Assembly (NCBI GenBank): GCA_947631395.1
Contig: CANRLF010000022.1
Span: 1 to 32,830, forward strand
DNA: 32,830 bases
Reading direction: 5' to 3'
Source of the DNA: an uncultured Oscillospiraceae bacterium
Lineage (GTDB): Bacteria; Bacillota; Clostridia; Oscillospirales; Oscillospiraceae
Notes under the pieces: model-generated
The model's input: only the letters and a program-made list of their open reading frames with translations
Database searches by the model: none
Told to the model about the DNA's origin: nothing
Shown here: positions 7,851 through 32,527 of the stretch, piece by piece
How the letters are laid out: every line of letters starts with the position of its first letter
How positions within the stretch are numbered: position 1 is the stretch's first letter
Translations under genes and position numbers: made by a program

Positions 7851-7891
7851 AACACTGAAATCTCTTATTAATTCATATTTTGGAGAACATT

Positions 7892-8269
7892 ATGACAGGT
7901 ACAAGAAAAGTCAGAACAGTTGATCTCATATATATCGCCCTCGGCGCGGCACTTATGGCAGTGTGCTCCTGGATAAGCGTACCCGCCGCCGTGCCCTTCA
8001 CCATGCAGACCTTCGGGGTATTCACGGTGCTTTTGTCTTTAGGCCCCAAACGAGGCACATCGTCGGTGGCGGCCTATCTCCTCTTAGGAGCCGTGGGCGC
8101 GCCGGTATTTTCCAATTTCGGCGGCGGTCCCGGGGCGCTCTTCGGGGCCACAGGCGGGTATCTCATGGGCTTTTTGTTCACCGGCCTTGCCTACATGCTG
8201 GGTCAGCCTGTCGAAAAAGGCCTGCGGCCTTTTTCGACAAGGGGGGAACGTGCGGGAAACTGCGCGTGA
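7892..8269 (+). pseudogene. bioY: bioY biotin-transporter S component, 3' end replaced by repeat element
   Basis: From the ATG at 7892 (GGAGAACATT upstream) the product reads as BioY, the membrane S component of ECF-type biotin transporters: VDLIYIALGAALMAVCSWISVP, VPFTMQTFGVFTVLLSLG, YLLLGAVGAPVFSNFGGGPG and GATGGYLMGFLFTGLAYMLG. After about residue 105 the frame runs straight into the 194-bp element at 8209 and stops at 8269, adding unrelated residues. BioY proteins usually have about 180-190 residues, so the last two helices are missing, and no remnant of them is seen before the terminator at 8409. The gene is 41 bases after DUF4173 and may be its operon partner. Loss of function is likely but not proven. 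Confidence 0.82.
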
Positions 8270-8402
8270 ATTTTGCGAAATTCACGCGCAATTTCCCTGC
8301 TGTCGCCCTGCGCGCGCCCCGTTGGGGCACACTTGAGCGACAAAAGGTATTTTTTCCGACGTACATGCCGCCGGAAAAAATGCTCGATTTGAGTTTTTGA
8401 TA
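8209..8402 (+). repeat. 194-bp hairpin element, copy A (interrupts bioY)
   Basis: The element begins TGTCGAAAAAGG and ends GTTTTTGATA, imperfect terminal inverted repeats. Internal order: palindrome TGTCGAAAAAGGCC-tgc-GGCCTTTTTCGACA (8209-8239); conserved AACGTGCGGG; central stem TGCGCGTGAATTT-tgcg-AAATTCACGCGCA; a TGTCGC...GCGACA arm enclosing CCCC-gtt-GGGG; a TTTTTTCCG...CGGAAAAAA arm; and ATTTGAG. The same order and near-equal length (193 bp) occur inverted at 29283-29475. No transposase is encoded. It could be a MITE-like non-autonomous element or a structured RNA cassette. I do not recognise a named family. Confidence 0.85.
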
Positions 8403-8432
8403 AAAATCCCGGACGGTTTTTATGCCGTCCGG
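8403..8432 (-). terminator. Terminator of the feo-linked operon
   Basis: The stem CCGGACGG-8 nt-CCGTCCGG (8409-8432) is followed on the minus strand by GATTTTTA. It lies seven bases beyond the stop of the gene at 8439 and directly abuts repeat element copy A. Confidence 0.75.
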
Positions 8433-17499: not shown

Positions 17500-20109
17500 T
17501 TATTTCAGGGCTTCAAGGGATTTTTCCAGATTTTCTATGAGCGAGCGGAGCTTTTCCGCCTTCTCCCTCTCTGTCCGGACCACGTTCTCCGGCGCTCTGG
17601 AGATGAATGCCTCGTTTGAGAGCTTCTTCATCTGCCCCTCCAAAAAGCCCCTGTTCTTCTTGAGCTCCTTCTCTATCCTCTCCCGTTCCGCATCAAGGTC
17701 CACAAGCTCCCTGAGCGGCAGGAACACACGGGCTGAGTGGGTGACCACGGTTACCATGCCCTCCCGCTCCTCGTCCTGACTTTCGGCGGTGACCTCCACC
17801 TCACTGGCCGAGGCCAGGCGCATGATATACGGCGCGCCCGCCCTGAAGTGCTCCGGTGTGGCGGTGGAGATTATGACCTTCGATCTCCTGCTCGGCGGCA
17901 CGTTCATGGCGCTCCGCTTTGACCTTATGGCGCTTACGGCGTCCATGACCTTCTCAAGATCCGCCTCCTCCTCAGGGAAGCTGAGCTTTTCGTCATAGAC
18001 CGGGTAATCCTCGATTATAAGGGCCGACTTTCCGTGGGGCAGTGCCTGATATATCTCCTCTGTGATGAATGGCATGAAGGGGTGCAAAAGCTTCAGCACG
18101 TCCGTCAGCACGTATAAAAGCACCCGCTGGACGTCCTCGTCCCCCTCGGCGAGCCTTGGCTTTGAAAGCTCGATATACCAGTCGCAGAAGGTGTCCCAGA
18201 TAAAATCGTATATCTTCTGGGCGGCGATCCCCAGCTCAAAGCGGTCAAAGTTGTCGTTGACCTCTCCCATAAGCGCGTTGAGCTTTGACAGCACCCACTT
18301 GTCCGGAAGCTCCAGCTTATCCGGAAGCTCGGCGTCCTCCACCGTCAGGTTCATCATCACAAAGCGGCTGGCGTTCCATATCTTGTTTGCGAAGTTGCGC
18401 ATGGCCTCGCACCGCTCGGTGTAAAACCGCATGTCGTTTCCGGGGGAGTTGCCGGTAATGATATTGAACCTCAGCGCGTCCGCGCCGTACCGGTCGATCA
18501 TCTCTATGGGGTCCACGCCGTTGCCGGCGGATTTGGACATCTTCTTGCCCTGGGGGTCCCGGATAAGCCCGTGTATGAGCACCGTCTTGAAGGGCGCCTT
18601 GCCCGTGTGCTCCATACCCGAGAAGATCATCCTGGCCACCCAGAAGAATATGATGTCATAGCCCGTGACGAGCACGTCCGTGGGATAGAAATACTCAAGA
18701 TCCTCCGTCTTGTCCGGCCAGCCAAGTGTGGAGAATGGCCAGAGAGCGGAAGAGAACCAGGTATCCAGCACGTCCGGGTCCCTTTCGATGTTCTTTGAGT
18801 GGCAGTGTTCGCACTCGGTGGGATCGGTGCGGCTCACCGTCATGTGGCCGCAGTCATTGCAGTACCAGGCCGGTATCTGGTGGCCCCACCACAGCTGCCT
18901 GGAGATGCACCAGTCGCGGACGTTGTGCATCCAGTTAAGATACGTCTTGGCAAAGCGGTCGGGGACGAATTTTATGGTCCCGTCCTCAACAACGCGTATG
19001 GCTTCCCGCGCCAGCGGCTCCATCTTCACGAACCACTGGTCCGAGGCCAGCGGCTCCACGTCGGAGTGACACCGGTAGCAGGTGCCCACGTTGTGTACGT
19101 GGTCCTCTATCTTGACTAAATATCCCTGCTCCTCGAGGTCCGCCACAATGGCCTTACGGGCCTCGTACCGGTCCATGCCGTTGTACTTCCCGCCGTTTAT
19201 TATCCTGCCCTCGCCGTCGATGACAAGTATCTGCTCCAGATCATGGCGCAGTCCCACCTCAAAGTCGTTGGGGTCGTGGCAGGGCGTCATTTTCACACAG
19301 CCGGTGCCGAAGGTCCTGTCCACATACTCGTCGGCCACGATGGGTATCTCCCTGTTCACCAATGGCAGGATGCACGTCTTGCCCACAAGGTCCGTGTACC
19401 GCTCATCCTCCGGGTTCACCGCGACGCCCGAGTCGCCAAGCATCGTCTCTGGCCTCGTTGTTGCCACCGTCACGTATCCCGACCCGTCAGAGAGCGGATA
19501 CCGGATGTGCCAGAGCTTGCCCGGCTTCTCCTCGTACTCCACCTCCGCGTCCGAAAGGGCCGTGGTGCAGTGGGGGCACCAGTTTATGATCCTCTTGCCC
19601 TTGTAGATAAGCCCCTTTTCGTATAGGGAGCAGAACACCTCCCTTACGGCCTTCGAGCACCCCTCGTCCATCGTGAAGCGTTGGCGCTCCCAGTCGCAGG
19701 AGGAGCCCAGTGTCTTGAGCTGCTCCACTATCCTGTCGCCGTACTTGTTTTTCCAGTCCCAGACCCTGTCGAGGAACTTCTCCCGCCCCAGGTCAAAGCG
19801 CGTCAGCCCCTCGCCCCTCAGCTGCTCCTCCACCTTTATCTGGGTGGCGATGCCCGCGTGGTCATAGCCCGGGAGCCACAGCGCCGAGTAGCCCATCATG
19901 CGCTTATACCTGATGAGCACGTCCTGAAGCGTCTCGTCAAAGGCATGTCCCAGGTGTAGCTGTCCCGTCACGTTGGGTGGCGGGATAACTATTGTGAAGG
20001 GCTTTTTCGACCGGTCCCTCTCCGCGTGGAAATATCCCCCGTCCACCCACATCTGATAGACGCGCTTCTCCACCGATTTTGGGTCGTACACCTTCGGTAA
20101 CTCTTTCAT
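17500..20109 (-). CDS. valS: Valyl-tRNA synthetase
   Basis: The 869-aa class I synthetase charges tRNA-Val. It shows the HIGH-type motif HLGHA (residues 52-56, after PPPNVTGQL), the CP1 editing domain ([22 protein letters not shown]), the KMSKS loop in [20 protein letters not shown], the anticodon-binding domain ([13 protein letters not shown]) and a C-terminal coiled coil ([26 protein letters not shown] to the end). The length is normal for bacteria. The ATG at 20109 is chosen because AAGGAGAG stands eight bases upstream; an 18-codon upstream extension runs into the T-box leader. Expression is controlled by the T-box at 20145-20375 and ends at the 17421-17462 terminator. Confidence 0.97.
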
Positions 20110-20144
20110 ACGATCAACTCTCCTTCCAAATTGCGGGGCAAAAA

Positions 20145-20375
20145 GAAATTCGCCCCAAGCCAATGCTCAGGGCGAATGAGAGATCATCCGCGGTACCACC
20201 TGAATTTCCACGCGCGCGTGGACACTCAATACCCTGTAACGGGAGCTCCCGTCGGGGACTACATATCACCCCCGCGGCTCCGGGACGACCTTTCAGCACT
20301 TCCCGCCAGAGCCTCGCACCCCCCGGCTCCTCTCTGTGACGTCCCGCGCCTACTTCTTCCCCTCAACGCCATTTT
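20145..20375 (-). promoter_or_regulatory. T-box leader of valS
   Basis: The minus strand contains the T-box core GGTGGTACCGCGG (20188-20200), which pairs with the uncharged tRNA acceptor end. It is followed by a terminator stem ATTCGCCC...GGGCGAAT and TTCTTTTT (20141-20177). Upstream, CGGGACG / CGTCCCG forms the base of stem I, enclosing an AGAGAG loop-E-like sequence. GTC at 20287-20289, beside the stem base, is a suitable valine specifier codon. Uncharged tRNA-Val should therefore favour antitermination and valS expression. The core and terminator are clear; the specifier assignment is by eye. Confidence 0.93.
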
Positions 20376-28904: not shown

Positions 28905-29186
28905 ATGGGCAATTTGAAAATACAAAGCATGAGGGAGTTTATCACCCTCTCGGAACTTAAAAACTTTAACTACGCGGCTGAGAAGCTTTTCCTCTCCCAG
29001 CCGACTCTCTCCCGCCACATAAAGGAGCTGGAGGAGGAGCTTGGCGTGACGCTGTTCAGCCGCTCCACCCGCAGAGTCGAGCTCACGGAGTACGGACTGT
29101 ACTTCCTGCCCTTCGCCAAGCGCATCGTCTCGGCTGAGGACGAGTATACCGTTGGCCTTGCCCGTATGCGCAAGGCCGCCGAATAG
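28905..29186 (+). CDS. Stand-alone LysR-type winged-helix DNA-binding domain
   Basis: The product is only 93 aa and matches the N-terminal HTH of LysR-type regulators: MREFITLSELKNFNYAAEKLFLSQPTLSRHIKELEEELGVTLFSRSTRRVELTEYG, then the start of the linker helix to residue 93. Full LTTRs have about 290-300 residues, and no effector domain follows. A terminator begins six bases after the stop, so the short form looks fixed. It may bind DNA without an inducer domain or interfere with a full-length paralog. The ATG at 28905 directly abuts AAAAAGGG; TTG at 28914 would be better spaced and give MKIQSMREF. The antiporter gene upstream is a possible target. Confidence 0.85.
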   Translation: MGNLKIQSMREFITLSELKNFNYAAEKLFLSQPTLSRHIKELEEELGVTLFSRSTRRVELTEYGLYFLPFAKRIVSAEDEYTVGLARMRKAAE

Positions 29187-29191
29187 CCCCC

Positions 29192-29226
29192 AAAACGGCG
29201 TGAGATCCCTGTCTCACGCCGTTTTT
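29192..29226 (+). terminator. Terminator of the LysR-type gene
   Basis: The stem AAAACGGCGTGAGA-6 nt-TCTCACGCCGTTTTT starts six bases after the stop codon. Confidence 0.88.
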
Positions 29227-29245: not shown

Positions 29246-29277
29246 AAATGGCGTGAAATCCTGATTTCACGCCATTT
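29246..29277. terminator. Second GGCGTGA-type hairpin, left of element copy B
   Basis: AAATGGCGTGAAAT-cctg-ATTTCACGCCATTTT is a near-perfect hairpin related to 29192-29226 and 29483-29511, with T or A tails on both sides. It lies six bases from the element. Confidence 0.65.
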
Positions 29278-29282
29278 TAGCT

Positions 29283-29475
29283 TGTCAAAAAACTCAAATT
29301 TTATATTTTTCCGACGACATGTGCGTCGGAAAAAATCCCTTTTGTCGCCCCAGTGTGCCCCAAAGGGGTGCGCGCAGGGCGACAGCAGGGCAATTTTCTC
29401 TGAATTTCGCAAAATTCAGAGAAAATTGCCCGCACGTTTCCCTTGTCGAAAAAGCCCGTCAGGGCTTTTTCGACA
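29283..29475 (-). repeat. 194-bp hairpin element, copy B (inverted relative to copy A)
   Basis: Read on the minus strand, the element begins TGTCGAAAAAGCCC-tga-CGGGCTTTTTCGACA and ends GTTTTTTGACA. It has the same order as copy A: AACGTGCGGG, the central stem, the TGTCGCCC...GGGCGACA arm with CCCC-ttt-GGGG, the TTTTTTCCGACG...CGTCGGAAAAA arm, and ATTTGAG. The central stem is AATTTTCTCTGAATTT / AAATTCAGAGAAAATT, against TGCGCGTGAATTT / AAATTCACGCGCA in copy A. Both arms change together while the TGAATTTTGCGAAATTCA core is constant. Confidence 0.87.
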
Positions 29476-29482
29476 GTCTCAA

Positions 29483-29513
29483 ATGGCGTGAGATCCCGAT
29501 CTCACGCCGTTTT
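29483..29513. terminator. Third GGCGTGA-type hairpin, right of element copy B
   Basis: AAATGGCGTGAGAT-cccg-ATCTCACGCCGTTTTTTT is seven bases from the element. It is placed directly after the GNAT stop codon on the minus strand and can end that operon (tail ATTTGAG), though its T-tract is stronger for plus-strand transcription. Confidence 0.7.
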
Positions 29514-29514
29514 T

Positions 29515-29940
29515 TTATTTTGTCCATTTCATCCCCACGTGCGGTATCCCGTCCTCAAGGTACGGCTCGGTGTACACCTTAAAGCCGCTCCTCTCGTAAA
29601 AGGGCCTTGCGTACATCTGGGCGCTTATAAATATCTCCCTGGCCCCCAGCTCCCTCACCGCCGTGTCGATGCCTACCGCCATTATCCTGCTGCCCAGTCC
29701 CTCCCGGCGATAGGCCGTGACGACCCGGCCTATGTGCGGCCCGTCTATGTCGTATACCCGCAGACACGCCACCACGCCCCGTTCGTCCCGCAGCCACACG
29801 TGCCACGACACCTTGTCCTTCCCGTCCGGGTCCTGATAGACGCATTTCTGCTCCACCACGAACACCCTGGAGCGCAGCTCCAGTATGTCATACAGCTCCT
29901 CCGCCGTGAGCTCATTGAAATGCTTTACAAATATCTCCAT
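29515..29940 (-). CDS. GNAT N-acetyltransferase (ElaA-like)
   Basis: The 141-aa protein matches the ElaA-like branch of GNAT acetyltransferases. It has ELYDILELRSRVFVVEQKCVYQDPDGKD near the N-terminus, then VACLRVYDIDGPHIGRVVTAYRREGLGSRIM with the R-x-x-G-x-G acetyl-CoA loop, and the C-terminal FYERSGFKVY and DGIPHVGMKW. The substrate is unknown. Its start overlaps the stop of the GTPase-NYN fusion by one base (TGATG), so it is translationally coupled to it. Confidence 0.9.
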   Translation of the reverse strand: MEIFVKHFNELTAEELYDILELRSRVFVVEQKCVYQDPDGKDKVSWHVWLRDERGVVACLRVYDIDGPHIGRVVTAYRREGLGSRIMAVGIDTAVRELGAREIFISAQMYARPFYERSGFKVYTEPYLEDGIPHVGMKWTK

Positions 29941-32498
29941 CAGTCCGTGATACCTCTGTTGTAGTCCCTGAGATAGTCCTCGATTGCCCGCTCTATGGCC
30001 TTGACCTCCGCCTCAAAGGCGCCTGCCGGGACCCTCAGTGCCCCGTTGCCCAAAATTATCATCTGCTCCGCCCCGTCCGAGGTCGCCACCCGCACGTTGT
30101 GGCGCTTTGACAGGTCATACGTGGCCCGCTCGATATACATGTCCGCCGTCTCGGCCTCCTTGGTGTATACCACGCTCACCCCGCCCAGATGCTCAACGGA
30201 CCCTGGGTTGTTCTTCACCTTGTACGCGTCAAATACGACTATAACGGCGCACTGCCGGAAGCCCTGATAGTTGCGCATCCTCTCTATCAGCTTCTCCCTG
30301 GCCGCGTCGAGGCTCTGGGCGGCCAGCTTTTTAAGGTCCTCCCAGGCGAAGATTATATTGTACCCGTCCACCAGCACGAACTCAAGTCCGTCCTTTTGCG
30401 GGGCGGGCCTTCTTTTTGCGGTCTTTTGCTCCGCCGGCGTCTTTGGCGCGGGACGAAGCGCCTCCTCCCCGCGCCCGATCTTCCCGTATGTCCGCTCGAA
30501 TATGGCCATGAGCTCCTTGTCCGTGGCGGCCAGCTTCACGTATCTCGCCGCCGCCTCCCGCGCCGGGTCCGGCGGCTTTGGCGGGTCAAGTGTGCTCTCC
30601 AGGTGCATACGCCCCGGCACCTCGTACCAGGGCACCACGACCCCCGCCCCGTGGGAGCAGAACACGCTGTCCGGTGAATTGTCCAGATCCGCCTGAGGGT
30701 CGTAGCCAATGGCCTCCACCACCTCGTCCTGCCGAGCGCAGGGCTCGTATCCGTGGAAAACGAAGCTCACTCTCCCCTGTCCCCTGGTGTAGGCCGTCAC
30801 CTCCCCCGGGTAGTCCCTCAGGGCCGACACCGGCCCCGAGCCCGTCAGCACCGCCATATCCTCCGGCCCGGCCGACTGCTCGAACACCGCCCCCATGCGC
30901 TGAAGGTCCGTCATGGCCCTGCCCACGCTCATCTGCGGGAGCTCTATCCTGAAATCGTACCAGGGCTCCAGCAGTACGCTCCTGGCCCTCATCAGCCCCT
31001 GCCGCACCGCCCGGTATGTCGCCTCCCGGAAATCCCCGCCCTCGGTGTGCTTCAGGTGCGCCTTCCCGGCGGACAGCGTTATCTTTATATCCGTTATCGG
31101 CGAGCCCGTCAGCACCCCCAGGTGCTGTTTTTCGTGCAGATGCGTGAGTATAAGCCTCTGCCAGCTCCGCGCCAGCGTGTCCTCAGGCACGTTCGCCTCG
31201 ATCTCCACGCCGGAGCCCCTCTTTCCGGGCTCCAATATAAGATGTACCTCCGCGTAGTGCCGCAACGGCTCATAGTGCCCCACGCCCTCTACCCGGTCCG
31301 CGATTGTCTCTCTGTATATTATCCTCCCCGGGCCGAATTTCAGCTCCAGCCCGAACCTCGACATGGCGAGCCTGCTTATCACCTCGAGCTGCACCTGGCC
31401 CATGATCCTCGCGCTTAGGCTCTGTGTCCTGGGCTCCCATATGAGCCTGAGCTCCGGTTCCTCCTCCTCCAACTTTCTAAGCTCCGCCACGGCCCTGTGG
31501 ACGTCGCACCCCGCCGGCAGGAGCACCGAGTAATTCAGTACCGGCTCCAGGGCCGGCGCCCTGCCGTCCGGCTCCTCGCCAAGCCCCTGCCCCGCGAAGG
31601 TCGCCGAAAGGCCCGTTACCGCCACGATGTCCCCGGCCTCCGCCTCCTCCACCGCCGTGAATTTGGCCCCGGAGTACACCCTCAGCTGTGTGACCTTCTC
31701 CTCCCAGTCCGGCCCCGCCACGGTGTCCCTTACGCGCAGTTTCCCGCCTGTGACCTTCAGGTGCGTGAGGCGCTTGTCCTCCTCGTCCCTCGATATTTTG
31801 AATACCCTCGCGGCGAATTTCTCCCCCGGCGTCGCCACCGGCGCGAACCGCTCAAGTCCCGCCAACAGCTCCTCCACGCCCCTCAGCTTCAGCGCCGCGC
31901 CGAAGAAGCACGGGTACACGTTCCCCCGGCAAAAGGCCCTGTCCACCGCCGCCTCAGTCACGTCCCCCCGCTCCAGGTGCTCGTCCAAAAGCTCCTCATC
32001 GCAAAGCGCCAGCGCCTCCGGGTCGGGACTCTCCGGGTCGAAGAAGCCGTCCCCCAGCGCGCCCGTGAGTTCCGTCAGGATCCCCTCCCTGTCCGCCCCG
32101 GGAAGGTCCATCTTGTTTATAAAAAGCACCGTGGGGATGTTCCTCCCCCGCAACAGCTTCCAAAGCGTCCTCGTGTGGCTCTGGACGCCCTCCGGCGCCG
32201 ATATGACGAGTATGGCGCAGTCCAGCACGTCCAGCGTCCGCTCCGCCTCCGCCGAAAAATCCACATGCCCCGGCGTGTCAAGGAGCGTCGCCGTCTTTTC
32301 CCCCAGTGTCAGCCGGGCCTCCTTGGAGAATATGGTTATCCCCCGCTCCCGCTCCAGGGCGAAGTTGTCAAGGAACGCGTCCCCGTGGTCCACCCTCCCC
32401 AGTTTCCTTATGTCCCCGGCGCTGTATAAAAGGGCCTCTGAGAGCGTGGTCTTTCCCGCGTCCACGTGGGCCAGTATACCGATCACCGTCTTACGCAC
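29940..32498 (-). CDS. Tet(M)/EF-G-like translation GTPase fused to YacP/Rae1-type NYN nuclease domain
   Basis: The ~852-aa fusion starts with a translation-factor GTPase: G1 GILAHVDAGKTTLSEALL, switch ERERGITIFS, G3 DTPGHVDF and G4 INKMDLP. Domains II-V follow in EF-G/Tet(M) order, including GQVQLEVISRLAMSRFGLE and an EF-G IV-like region with YRAVRQGLMRARSVLLEPWYDFRI. After a basic linker (about 670-700), residues ~705-852 form a NYN domain with acidic sites in VDGYN, VVFDAYK, ADMYIE and ATSDGAEQ, as in YacP/Rae1, a ribosome-dependent mRNA endonuclease of Bacillus. The fusion plausibly binds the ribosomal A site and cuts mRNA or rescues ribosomes (inference). GTG 32498 is preferred because AAAGGGGG precedes it; ATG 32516 lacks a site. 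A tetracycline-resistance role is not implied. Confidence 0.88.
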   Translation of the reverse strand: MRKTVIGILAHVDAGKTTLSEALLYSAGDIRKLGRVDHGDAFLDNFALERERGITIFSKEARLTLGEKTATLLDTPGHVDFSAEAERTLDVLDCAILVISAPEGVQSHTRTLWKLLRGRNIPTVLFINKMDLPGADREGILTELTGALGDGFFDPESPDPEALALCDEELLDEHLERGDVTEAAVDRAFCRGNVYPCFFGAALKLRGVEELLAGLERFAPVATPGEKFAARVFKISRDEEDKRLTHLKVTGGKLRVRDTVAGPDWEEKVTQLRVYSGAKFTAVEEAEAGDIVAVTGLSATFAGQGLGEEPDGRAPALEPVLNYSVLLPAGCDVHRAVAELRKLEEEEPELRLIWEPRTQSLSARIMGQVQLEVISRLAMSRFGLELKFGPGRIIYRETIADRVEGVGHYEPLRHYAEVHLILEPGKRGSGVEIEANVPEDTLARSWQRLILTHLHEKQHLGVLTGSPITDIKITLSAGKAHLKHTEGGDFREATYRAVRQGLMRARSVLLEPWYDFRIELPQMSVGRAMTDLQRMGAVFEQSAGPEDMAVLTGSGPVSALRDYPGEVTAYTRGQGRVSFVFHGYEPCARQDEVVEAIGYDPQADLDNSPDSVFCSHGAGVVVPWYEVPGRMHLESTLDPPKPPDPAREAAARYVKLAATDKELMAIFERTYGKIGRGEEALRPAPKTPAEQKTAKRRPAPQKDGLEFVLVDGYNIIFAWEDLKKLAAQSLDAAREKLIERMRNYQGFRQCAVIVVFDAYKVKNNPGSVEHLGGVSVVYTKEAETADMYIERATYDLSKRHNVRVATSDGAEQMIILGNGALRVPAGAFEAEVKAIERAIEDYLRDYNRGITD

Positions 32499-32527
32499 CC
32501 CAGCGCCCCCTTTCATCGACTTCGGAT

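Follow-up and report, generated by a model that had tools for sequence, protein, structure and literature searches.

The window analysed here, that is, the whole stretch of 32,830 nucleotides from one contig of an uncultured Oscillospiraceae genome, contains two copies of a short, MITE-like element in opposite orientation, together with a truncated bioY-like gene and several terminator-like hairpins (Table 1).

Table 1. Positions of the two element copies, their parts and the features adjoining them in the window.
Feature	Position	Strand	Description
Copy 1 of the element	8204..8402	+	CAGCCTGTCG...GAGTTTTTGATA; 199 bp; right end worn
Conserved core of copy 1	8244..8381	+	ACGTGCGG and hairpins 2, 3 and 4; model R1, 132.1 bits; model R2 match at 8340-8418
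Hairpin 1 of copy 1	8209..8239	+	TGTCGAAAAAGGCC..GGCCTTTTTCGACA; A-tract/T-tract stem, read from the sequence
Terminator-like hairpin adjoining copy 1, outside the element	8409..8432	.	Terminator scan
bioY-like ORF	7880..8269	+	PF02632, profile positions 3-71 of 140, residues 37-106 of 129
Copy 2 of the element	29279..29480	-	Minus strand GAGACTGTCG...TTTTTTGACAAGCT; 202 bp
Conserved core of copy 2	29304..29441	-	Model R1, 138.1 bits; model R2 match at 29258-29345
Target hairpin beside copy 2, one repeat	29246..29277	.	AAATGGCGTGAAATCCTGATTTCACGCCATTT, 32 bp
Target hairpin beside copy 2, other repeat	29481..29512	.	AAATGGCGTGAGATCCCGATCTCACGCCGTTT, 32 bp; terminator-like
Third similar hairpin near copy 2	29192..29226	+	Directly 3' of the ORF ending at 29186

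The two copies lie where the initial annotation had placed them and align end to end, with the same four hairpins in the same order. The exchange in the central stem is also as described there, with CTGCGCG..CGCGCA in one copy against TTTTCTC..GAGAAAA in the other around TGAATTTTGCGAAATTCA. That said, while the location was right, the ends had been drawn too short, as judged against the CAG..CTG ends of the IS described below, and the two 32-bp hairpin repeats around copy 2, which differ from one another by a paired A-T to G-C change, had been missed. Neither copy encodes a transposase, both being too short for one, and both stay below the roughly 300 bp taken as the upper size of such a MITE. 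By inspection, hairpin 1 of copy 1 is terminator-like on both strands, although the terminator scan did not call this hairpin of the element. A target duplication was looked for in the flanks of copy 1 and none was seen; its right end is worn (TTTTTGATA). Upstream, the match of the bioY-like ORF to the BioY domain is confined to the first half of the latter. The gene breaks off about 10 bases or less from the start of copy 1, and the reading frame continues into the copy, with its stop codon inside the element. Elsewhere in the window we find an 858-aa ORF (29940-32516, minus strand) with elongation-factor-G-like domains and a C-terminal YacP-like NYN domain, and a T-box leader (RF00230, 118.5 bits; 20165-20375, minus strand) just upstream of the ORF at 17500-20163.

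Far from being limited to two copies, the element is present in dozens of copies in its own genome. In particular, a DNA search of this genome (2,568,431 bases on 62 contigs) gave 65 matches, self-inverted ones counted, and the covariance model R1, built from 26 copies, gave at least 70 matches at E<=0.01 and at least 38 over the full model at 89 bits or more, counts that rest on the 150 of 1189 first-look candidates that were scored. The R1 scores of the window copies (132 and 138 bits) are circular if taken alone, R1 having been built partly from both of them; the independent model R2, built only from other genera, matches both as well (2.4e-9 and 1.1e-7), and the window copies are therefore beyond chance. 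Among 60 relatives, R1 finds the family at E<=0.001 in 30 of the 34 genus genomes, counting the own one, and in 1 of 26 others, with copy numbers per genome being lower bounds, since in many genomes the limit of 55 candidates to be scored was reached; the relatives named here are uncultured Oscillospiraceae MAGs from 'Lapin' samples. Across the order, weaker relatives are found with R1 at E<=1e-6 in 38 of 394 genomes and 19 of 168 genera, 3 of the 38 genomes belonging to the genus of the window and 35 to other genera. In a draw across the phylum, R2 matched only 2 of 398 genomes, namely the own genome and one of the same family, which argues that its matches are not due to chance; the four same-order genomes among those listed gave no match, and this draw, made under strict filters and with few members of the order, gave no sign of the family outside the order.

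The counts below refer to two sets of copies. The genus set comprises 154 copies that fit a strict core pattern, 150 of them with both flanks, and it under-counts worn copies. Left out of it were 14 listed records from other phyla and 6 viral loci, none of which matches R1, as well as 8 further loci from other phyla that match no model. Carriage by viruses was considered and rejected, the core pattern in the 6 viral contigs being ascribed to chance, as 0 of 6 match R1. In the wider family set, 56 of 90 loci pass the hairpin-4 filter, with 52 distinct ones counted and 49 having flanks; in the alignment A5, 44 of 46 candidate stretches were entered. As for individual variants, L028 (G000:C47:5055 onward) carries an insert of about 100 bp within the apical loop of hairpin 3, and the hits of 200-243 bases in L128, L136, L139, L153, L172 and L198 may hold similar inserts, while L064 (G000:C10:38191-38274) is a short copy without hairpins 2 and 3 in which both IS-type ends are present.

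The interior of the element is occupied by a folded core, consisting of hairpins 2-4 and of stretches lying partly outside the stems, namely CGTGCGG, CCTGC, CGCGC and, with one change, ACAAAAGG, and these parts do not vary among the 26 copies first aligned; the divergent copy L320 departs from these with CGTGCGA. In the same 26-sequence alignment, which was not fitted to the structure and in which related copies inflate the shuffle test, 98.8% of the cells are paired as compared to 77.0% after shuffling, double changes occur at 25 of 40 pairs, and the covariation score is 0.560, against 0.166 for shuffled alignments and 0.194 for the best slid control. Four of the five covariation measures exceed all 500 shuffles, and the slid controls as well, while the fifth, dealing with further pair types, stands at 46 against 43.3 and is reached by 86 of the 500 shuffles. 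The alignments A3 and A4, being fitted to the model, were not used for this claim. The hairpin-4 region is conserved across genera: the 20 order-wide relatives and 10 copies of G042 that were read have the same kind of hairpin 4, and many of them carry an extra hairpin 5, followed by CTCTGCGAGGC. A known RNA family was considered for the core and rejected, since Rfam 15 gives only sub-threshold matches at the element; the gathering search of the window gave no match there, the T-box leader being its only hit, and when the search was relaxed, 7 loci of the genus and 12 from other genera yielded only matches below the gathering scores.

IS1182 elements may target palindromes, and this was the reason for which PF13751 was tested. 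The ends of the element, CAGACTGTC..AAAA and TTTTTTGACAAGCTG, match those of IS1182 elements of about 1.5 kb in the genus, one of which resides in the own genome. There, the 3' end motif GTTTTTTGACAAGCTG is found with at most 2 mismatches at 32 sites, against 1 for the reversed control, and on contig C2 two such sites delimit an element of 1511 bp (CAGTCTGTCAAAAAAC..CTTTTTTGACAAGCTG), which carries the only PF13751 gene of this genome. Its 506-aa transposase contains DUF772 and DDE domains and scores 378.5 bits with NF033551 (IS1182 transposase; cut-off 270), meaning that a transposase with matching ends, as had been envisaged in the initial annotation, is present in the same genome as part of an autonomous IS1182-family IS. 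The IS-type end pair was found at 4 of the 17 PF13751 loci examined out of 20 (in G000, G001, G011 and G013) and was not found at the other 13; NF033551 was applied to the own-genome IS, and the other three ISs were assigned by PF13751. The four ISs with MITE-type ends measure 1499-1511 bp and hold open frames of at least 506 aa, which leaves no room for the core of the MITE, and a search with R1 within the C2 element gave no match. The MITE and the IS have only their ends in common, and the interior of the former is not derived from the latter. Copy number does not clearly track the presence of the transposase: PF13751 is matched in 10 of 19 copy-rich genomes of the genus (in one below the curated cut-off) and in 4 of 15 copy-poor ones, and the search gave no match in 9 of the 19 genus genomes with at least 37 copies, several of them nearly complete.

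What is more, the MITE and the IS leave the same mark, namely a flanking direct repeat that is a whole, often terminator-like hairpin, with the hairpin setting the length of the repeat. Direct repeats with a score of at least 28 flank 44 of 150 copies, as compared to 0.6 expected from swapped flanks, and 12 of the 44 lie in the own genome; the other 106 copies have no repeat at this score. A stem of at least 10 pairs is found in 34 of the 44 repeats and in 3.0% of random 34-mers, a threshold which we prefer to one of 7 pairs (43 of 44 repeats) because 31-32% of random 34-mers pass the latter. A T-run lies on the proper side in 27 of the 44, against 6% in the control. The aligned repeats are 18 to 53 bp long and mostly follow the hairpin, a few of the longer values including bases of the element; the strong repeat of 53 bp at L013 is not a hairpin. 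All four ISs with the shared ends are flanked by whole-hairpin repeats of about 21-31 bp. The host repeat in which the C2 IS lies has a further copy to the right of L025, and there the target (gggaatacatacagtattccc) is present once and undivided. In the other genera, direct repeats with a score of at least 36 flank 13 of 49 copies, with 0.2 expected, and 12 of the 13 are palindromic by inspection (G218 gives 6, G302 2 and G377 2).

Five of 102 flank pairs, many of which are the same place twice, were inspected for empty sites. One of these is clean: in L003 the element is flanked on either side by GGCGGACTTGAGTCCGCC, while the orthologous site L172 lacks the element and has a single hairpin, GGCGGACAAACGTCCGCC. 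In the pair L201/L163 the site is empty with no hairpin there, L207/L226 suggests replacement of a hairpin, L190 keeps only a stem like hairpin 1 where L169 has a full copy, and L143/L241 gave no answer. At the site orthologous to that of copy 2, a divergent member of the family lies in reverse orientation in G018 (L320) and L322 holds another repeat, while no element was seen in the 230-251 bases available from L321, L323, L326 and L328. The suggestion that the element is MITE-like is upheld by its many copies, discrete ends, target duplications, orthologous empty site and covariation, and by the IS with matching ends. Two further observations concern the flanks themselves. A second, unrelated dispersed repeat of about 100 bp (taatatctaattaaaataagacattcgcg...gggaatacatacagtattccctgcgg) occurs in the right flank of L025, on G000:C2 near 174400 and in L322, and one of its copies is the target of the IS1182 element. 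In L115, L188, L162, L159 and L148, paired changes or an inverted loop set the two duplicates of the target hairpin apart, which suggests rapid rewriting of palindromes in these genomes.

We believe it highly probable, judging from these sequence comparisons, that the element is a MITE whose mobilisation is provided in trans by a DDE transposase of the IS1182 family; this enzyme would recognise the element by its ends of about 15 bp, CAG(A/C)CTGTCRAAAA and TTTTTTGACAAGCTG. IS1272, a member of the same family, is described as targeting terminators and other stem-loops and replacing them without duplication (PMC4923244, PMC5678879), and Figure 13 of PMC5678879 includes a hypothetical pathway b, in which joining at both 5' feet would duplicate the whole stem-loop. 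The repeats seen here fit this pathway: an IS1182-family transposase acting in trans on the ends of the MITE would join them at the 5' feet of both stem-loops, with the whole hairpin being duplicated as a result. Following such an insertion, both neighbouring genes would retain a terminator, and for this reason the insertion would be nearly harmless, which could explain the dozens of copies per genome. In crude gene calls, by which 21 of the 154 copies lie inside a predicted ORF and 18 are without a neighbour, convergent genes flank 47 of the 115 placed copies, as compared to 51 of 257 element-free gaps (Fisher p=4e-5), and divergent genes flank 17 of the 115, as compared to 69 of 257; the enrichment between convergent genes is in line with insertion at gene ends. 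More tentatively, the folded core may not be needed for transposition, since the ISs have no room for it, and it may be kept for activity as a terminator or insulator, as an RNA, or as a DNA fold that binds a protein, and DNA template switching may help to bring about the paired changes in the long stems.

What, then, maintains the core? RNA helices tolerate G.U but not A.C, and isolated mismatches can therefore be compared on this basis. As a control, 37 tRNAs from the examined loci give 40 G.U against 5 A.C in a positional count, which replaces pairs drawn by ARAGORN, a biased source in that ARAGORN draws standard pairs only. In the genus, the element gives 31 G.T against 43 A.C in distinct contexts, an excess that is not significant (p=0.2), with G.T to A.C being 6:14 in hairpin 1, 23:28 in hairpin 2 and 2:1 in the outer part of hairpin 4. 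The other genera give 10 against 21 (0:10 in hairpin 4, 2:5 in hairpin 5 and 8:6 in the strongest upstream hairpin). Pooled, 41 G.T and 64 A.C contexts stand against 40:5 in the tRNAs (Fisher p=9.6e-9); in raw cells, A.C outnumbers G.T by 89 to 38 in a 162-copy set that includes the 8 other-phyla loci. As G.T is not favoured over A.C, the long stems are unlike RNA helices read from the strand on which the element is given here. That said, a G.U preference would equally be missing from a structure that has to fold on both strands, or from palindromes rewritten by template switching, a mechanism described for RNA genes in PMC8794818.

It is possible, if doubtful, that the paired changes come mainly from such template switching, with little structural selection, and that the core is a mere passenger. 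The changes consist of Watson-Crick pairs with few intermediates, and the pooled mismatch counts just given are those that one would expect under this mechanism, as are the duplicated target hairpins with paired changes or an inverted loop at L115, L188, L162 and L159. However, template switching leaves unexplained the invariant stretches that lie partly outside the stems, as well as the covariation without complementarity in the loop of hairpin 4 described next, and a search for the common hairpin 1 loops in inverted form found none.

Hairpin 4 behaves differently from the long stems. Its third pair is A.C in 80 and A-T in 42 of the 126 classed genus copies (122 in all), A.C in 32 and A-T in 18 of 56 copies in the other genera (50 in all), and never G.T in either. 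As for its loop, 125 of the 126 classed copies of the genus and 50 of 52 from the other genera have T..C or C..T as the first and last bases, so that the loop ends covary without being complementary. The pattern used admitted only C or T as the first base (and, in the other genera, as the last too), yet no genus copies are added to the 126 when any first base is admitted; the register is then shifted in 26 of them, and no loop pattern fits 28 of the 154 copies. Read on the opposite strand, these features become G.U/A-U and A.G/G.A, as in RNA, and we regard them as a lead only, because the cells cannot be counted as independent. A functional structured RNA transcribed from that strand, which would hitch-hike on IS1182 ends and use hairpin 1 as its terminator, nevertheless seems to us rather unlikely as the identity of the core. 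The hairpin 4 pair and loop ends speak for it, as do the persistence of the hairpin-4 region across genera, the 15 A.C against 2 G.T distinct contexts in hairpins 4 and 5 of the other genera (p=0.002) and the covariation score, while hairpins 1 and 2 of the genus have no wobble preference, and neither the outer hairpin 4 of the genus nor hairpin 1 of the other genera leans toward A.C. Moreover, several of the contexts fall at one position and are thus not independent, a fixed A opposite a free C/T would look alike, and the promoter scan gave one weak match in copy 2 and none in copy 1. As regards the mobile structured RNA proposed in the initial annotation, the core is conserved and covaries, but a G.U preference of the kind known from RNA helices is missing in the long stems, and hairpin 4 with its loop is the only part that points to an RNA, one on the opposite strand. 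The fullest version, in which the core is a new order-wide structured RNA of the opposite strand, with covarying A.G/G.A in the hairpin-4 loop, that adopted IS1182 ends, spreads as a mobile non-coding gene, inserts into terminators and sits harmlessly in 3' regions, we consider unlikely; if it were true, each copy would be harmless in the 3' regions, with both neighbours still terminated.

It is likewise rather improbable that the element persists by supplying transcription terminators and so insulating neighbouring genes. The enrichment of copies between convergent genes agrees with such a role, as do the A-tract/GC-stem/T-tract make-up of hairpin 1 by inspection and the retention of just a stem of this kind at L190. 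That said, insertion duplicates a terminator, which means that the neighbours already own one, hairpins 2-4 are left unexplained, and hairpin 1 escaped the terminator scan. Finally, REP/BIME-type repeats, which are similarly high-copy, intergenic and multi-hairpin and which are moved by a REP-associated tyrosine transposase (RAYT), a Y1 (HUH) partner that leaves no target duplication, are a highly improbable reading and were set aside on the direct target duplications and on the inverted, DDE-type ends, which the element shares with a DDE IS.

Returning to a MITE moved by an IS1182-family transposase, the literature searched on IS1182 and on repeats of this bacterial group yielded no whole-hairpin duplication by IS1182 beyond the hypothetical pathway, nor this repeat. 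For IS1182 elements, ISfinder gives direct repeats that range from 0 to about 60 bp, and such duplications may therefore already be recorded there. The present copies are natural cases that fit a route of transposition proposed, in the accessible text of PMC5678879, only on paper (Fig. 13, pathway b). They also offer a non-coding folded core which is spread over several families of one order, is unrelated to the IS that probably moves it and covaries strongly, with no G.U preference in its long stems, and this is a caution against taking covariation in mobile palindromes as proof of a functional RNA.

Several known systems resemble the element in part. The SMR-A repeats of Haloquadratum are likewise short mobile repeats that insert within palindromes, but they are archaeal and, as far as the accessible text of PMC3119063 goes, have no target duplication and ends unrelated to known transposons. 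IStrons (PMC4227781) likewise combine a structured RNA with a DNA transposon, theirs being a group I intron. In the present element, by contrast, no Rfam family was matched. We know of no link between IS1182 and the bcr elements of the Bacillus cereus group. The latter are also dispersed and MITE-like, with conserved secondary structures and transcription being described for some of their 18 families (PMC3446304); they belong to another host group and are set apart here by description rather than by sequence comparison. The ISMac2 MITEs that Methanosarcina acetivorans carries (160 and 169 bp; PMC3852290) are likewise short, free of a transposase and partnered with an IS1182 element. In our reading, their entries give 26 and 25 for the inverted repeats and 4 and 0 for the direct ones, and so differ in having no whole-hairpin duplication, and the accessible part of that paper mentions no folded core. 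IS1272 and TnSha1, also of the IS1182 family, likewise have a transposase that targets stem-loops, often terminators, but IS1272 deletes or replaces the stem-loop (PMC4923244, PMC5678879), whereas here the whole stem-loop is duplicated. In short, IS1182 MITEs (PMC3852290) and the targeting of terminators by the IS1182 family are already known, while the recurrent duplication of a whole hairpin by both MITE and IS, and the order-wide folded core, are new as far as the literature searched shows.
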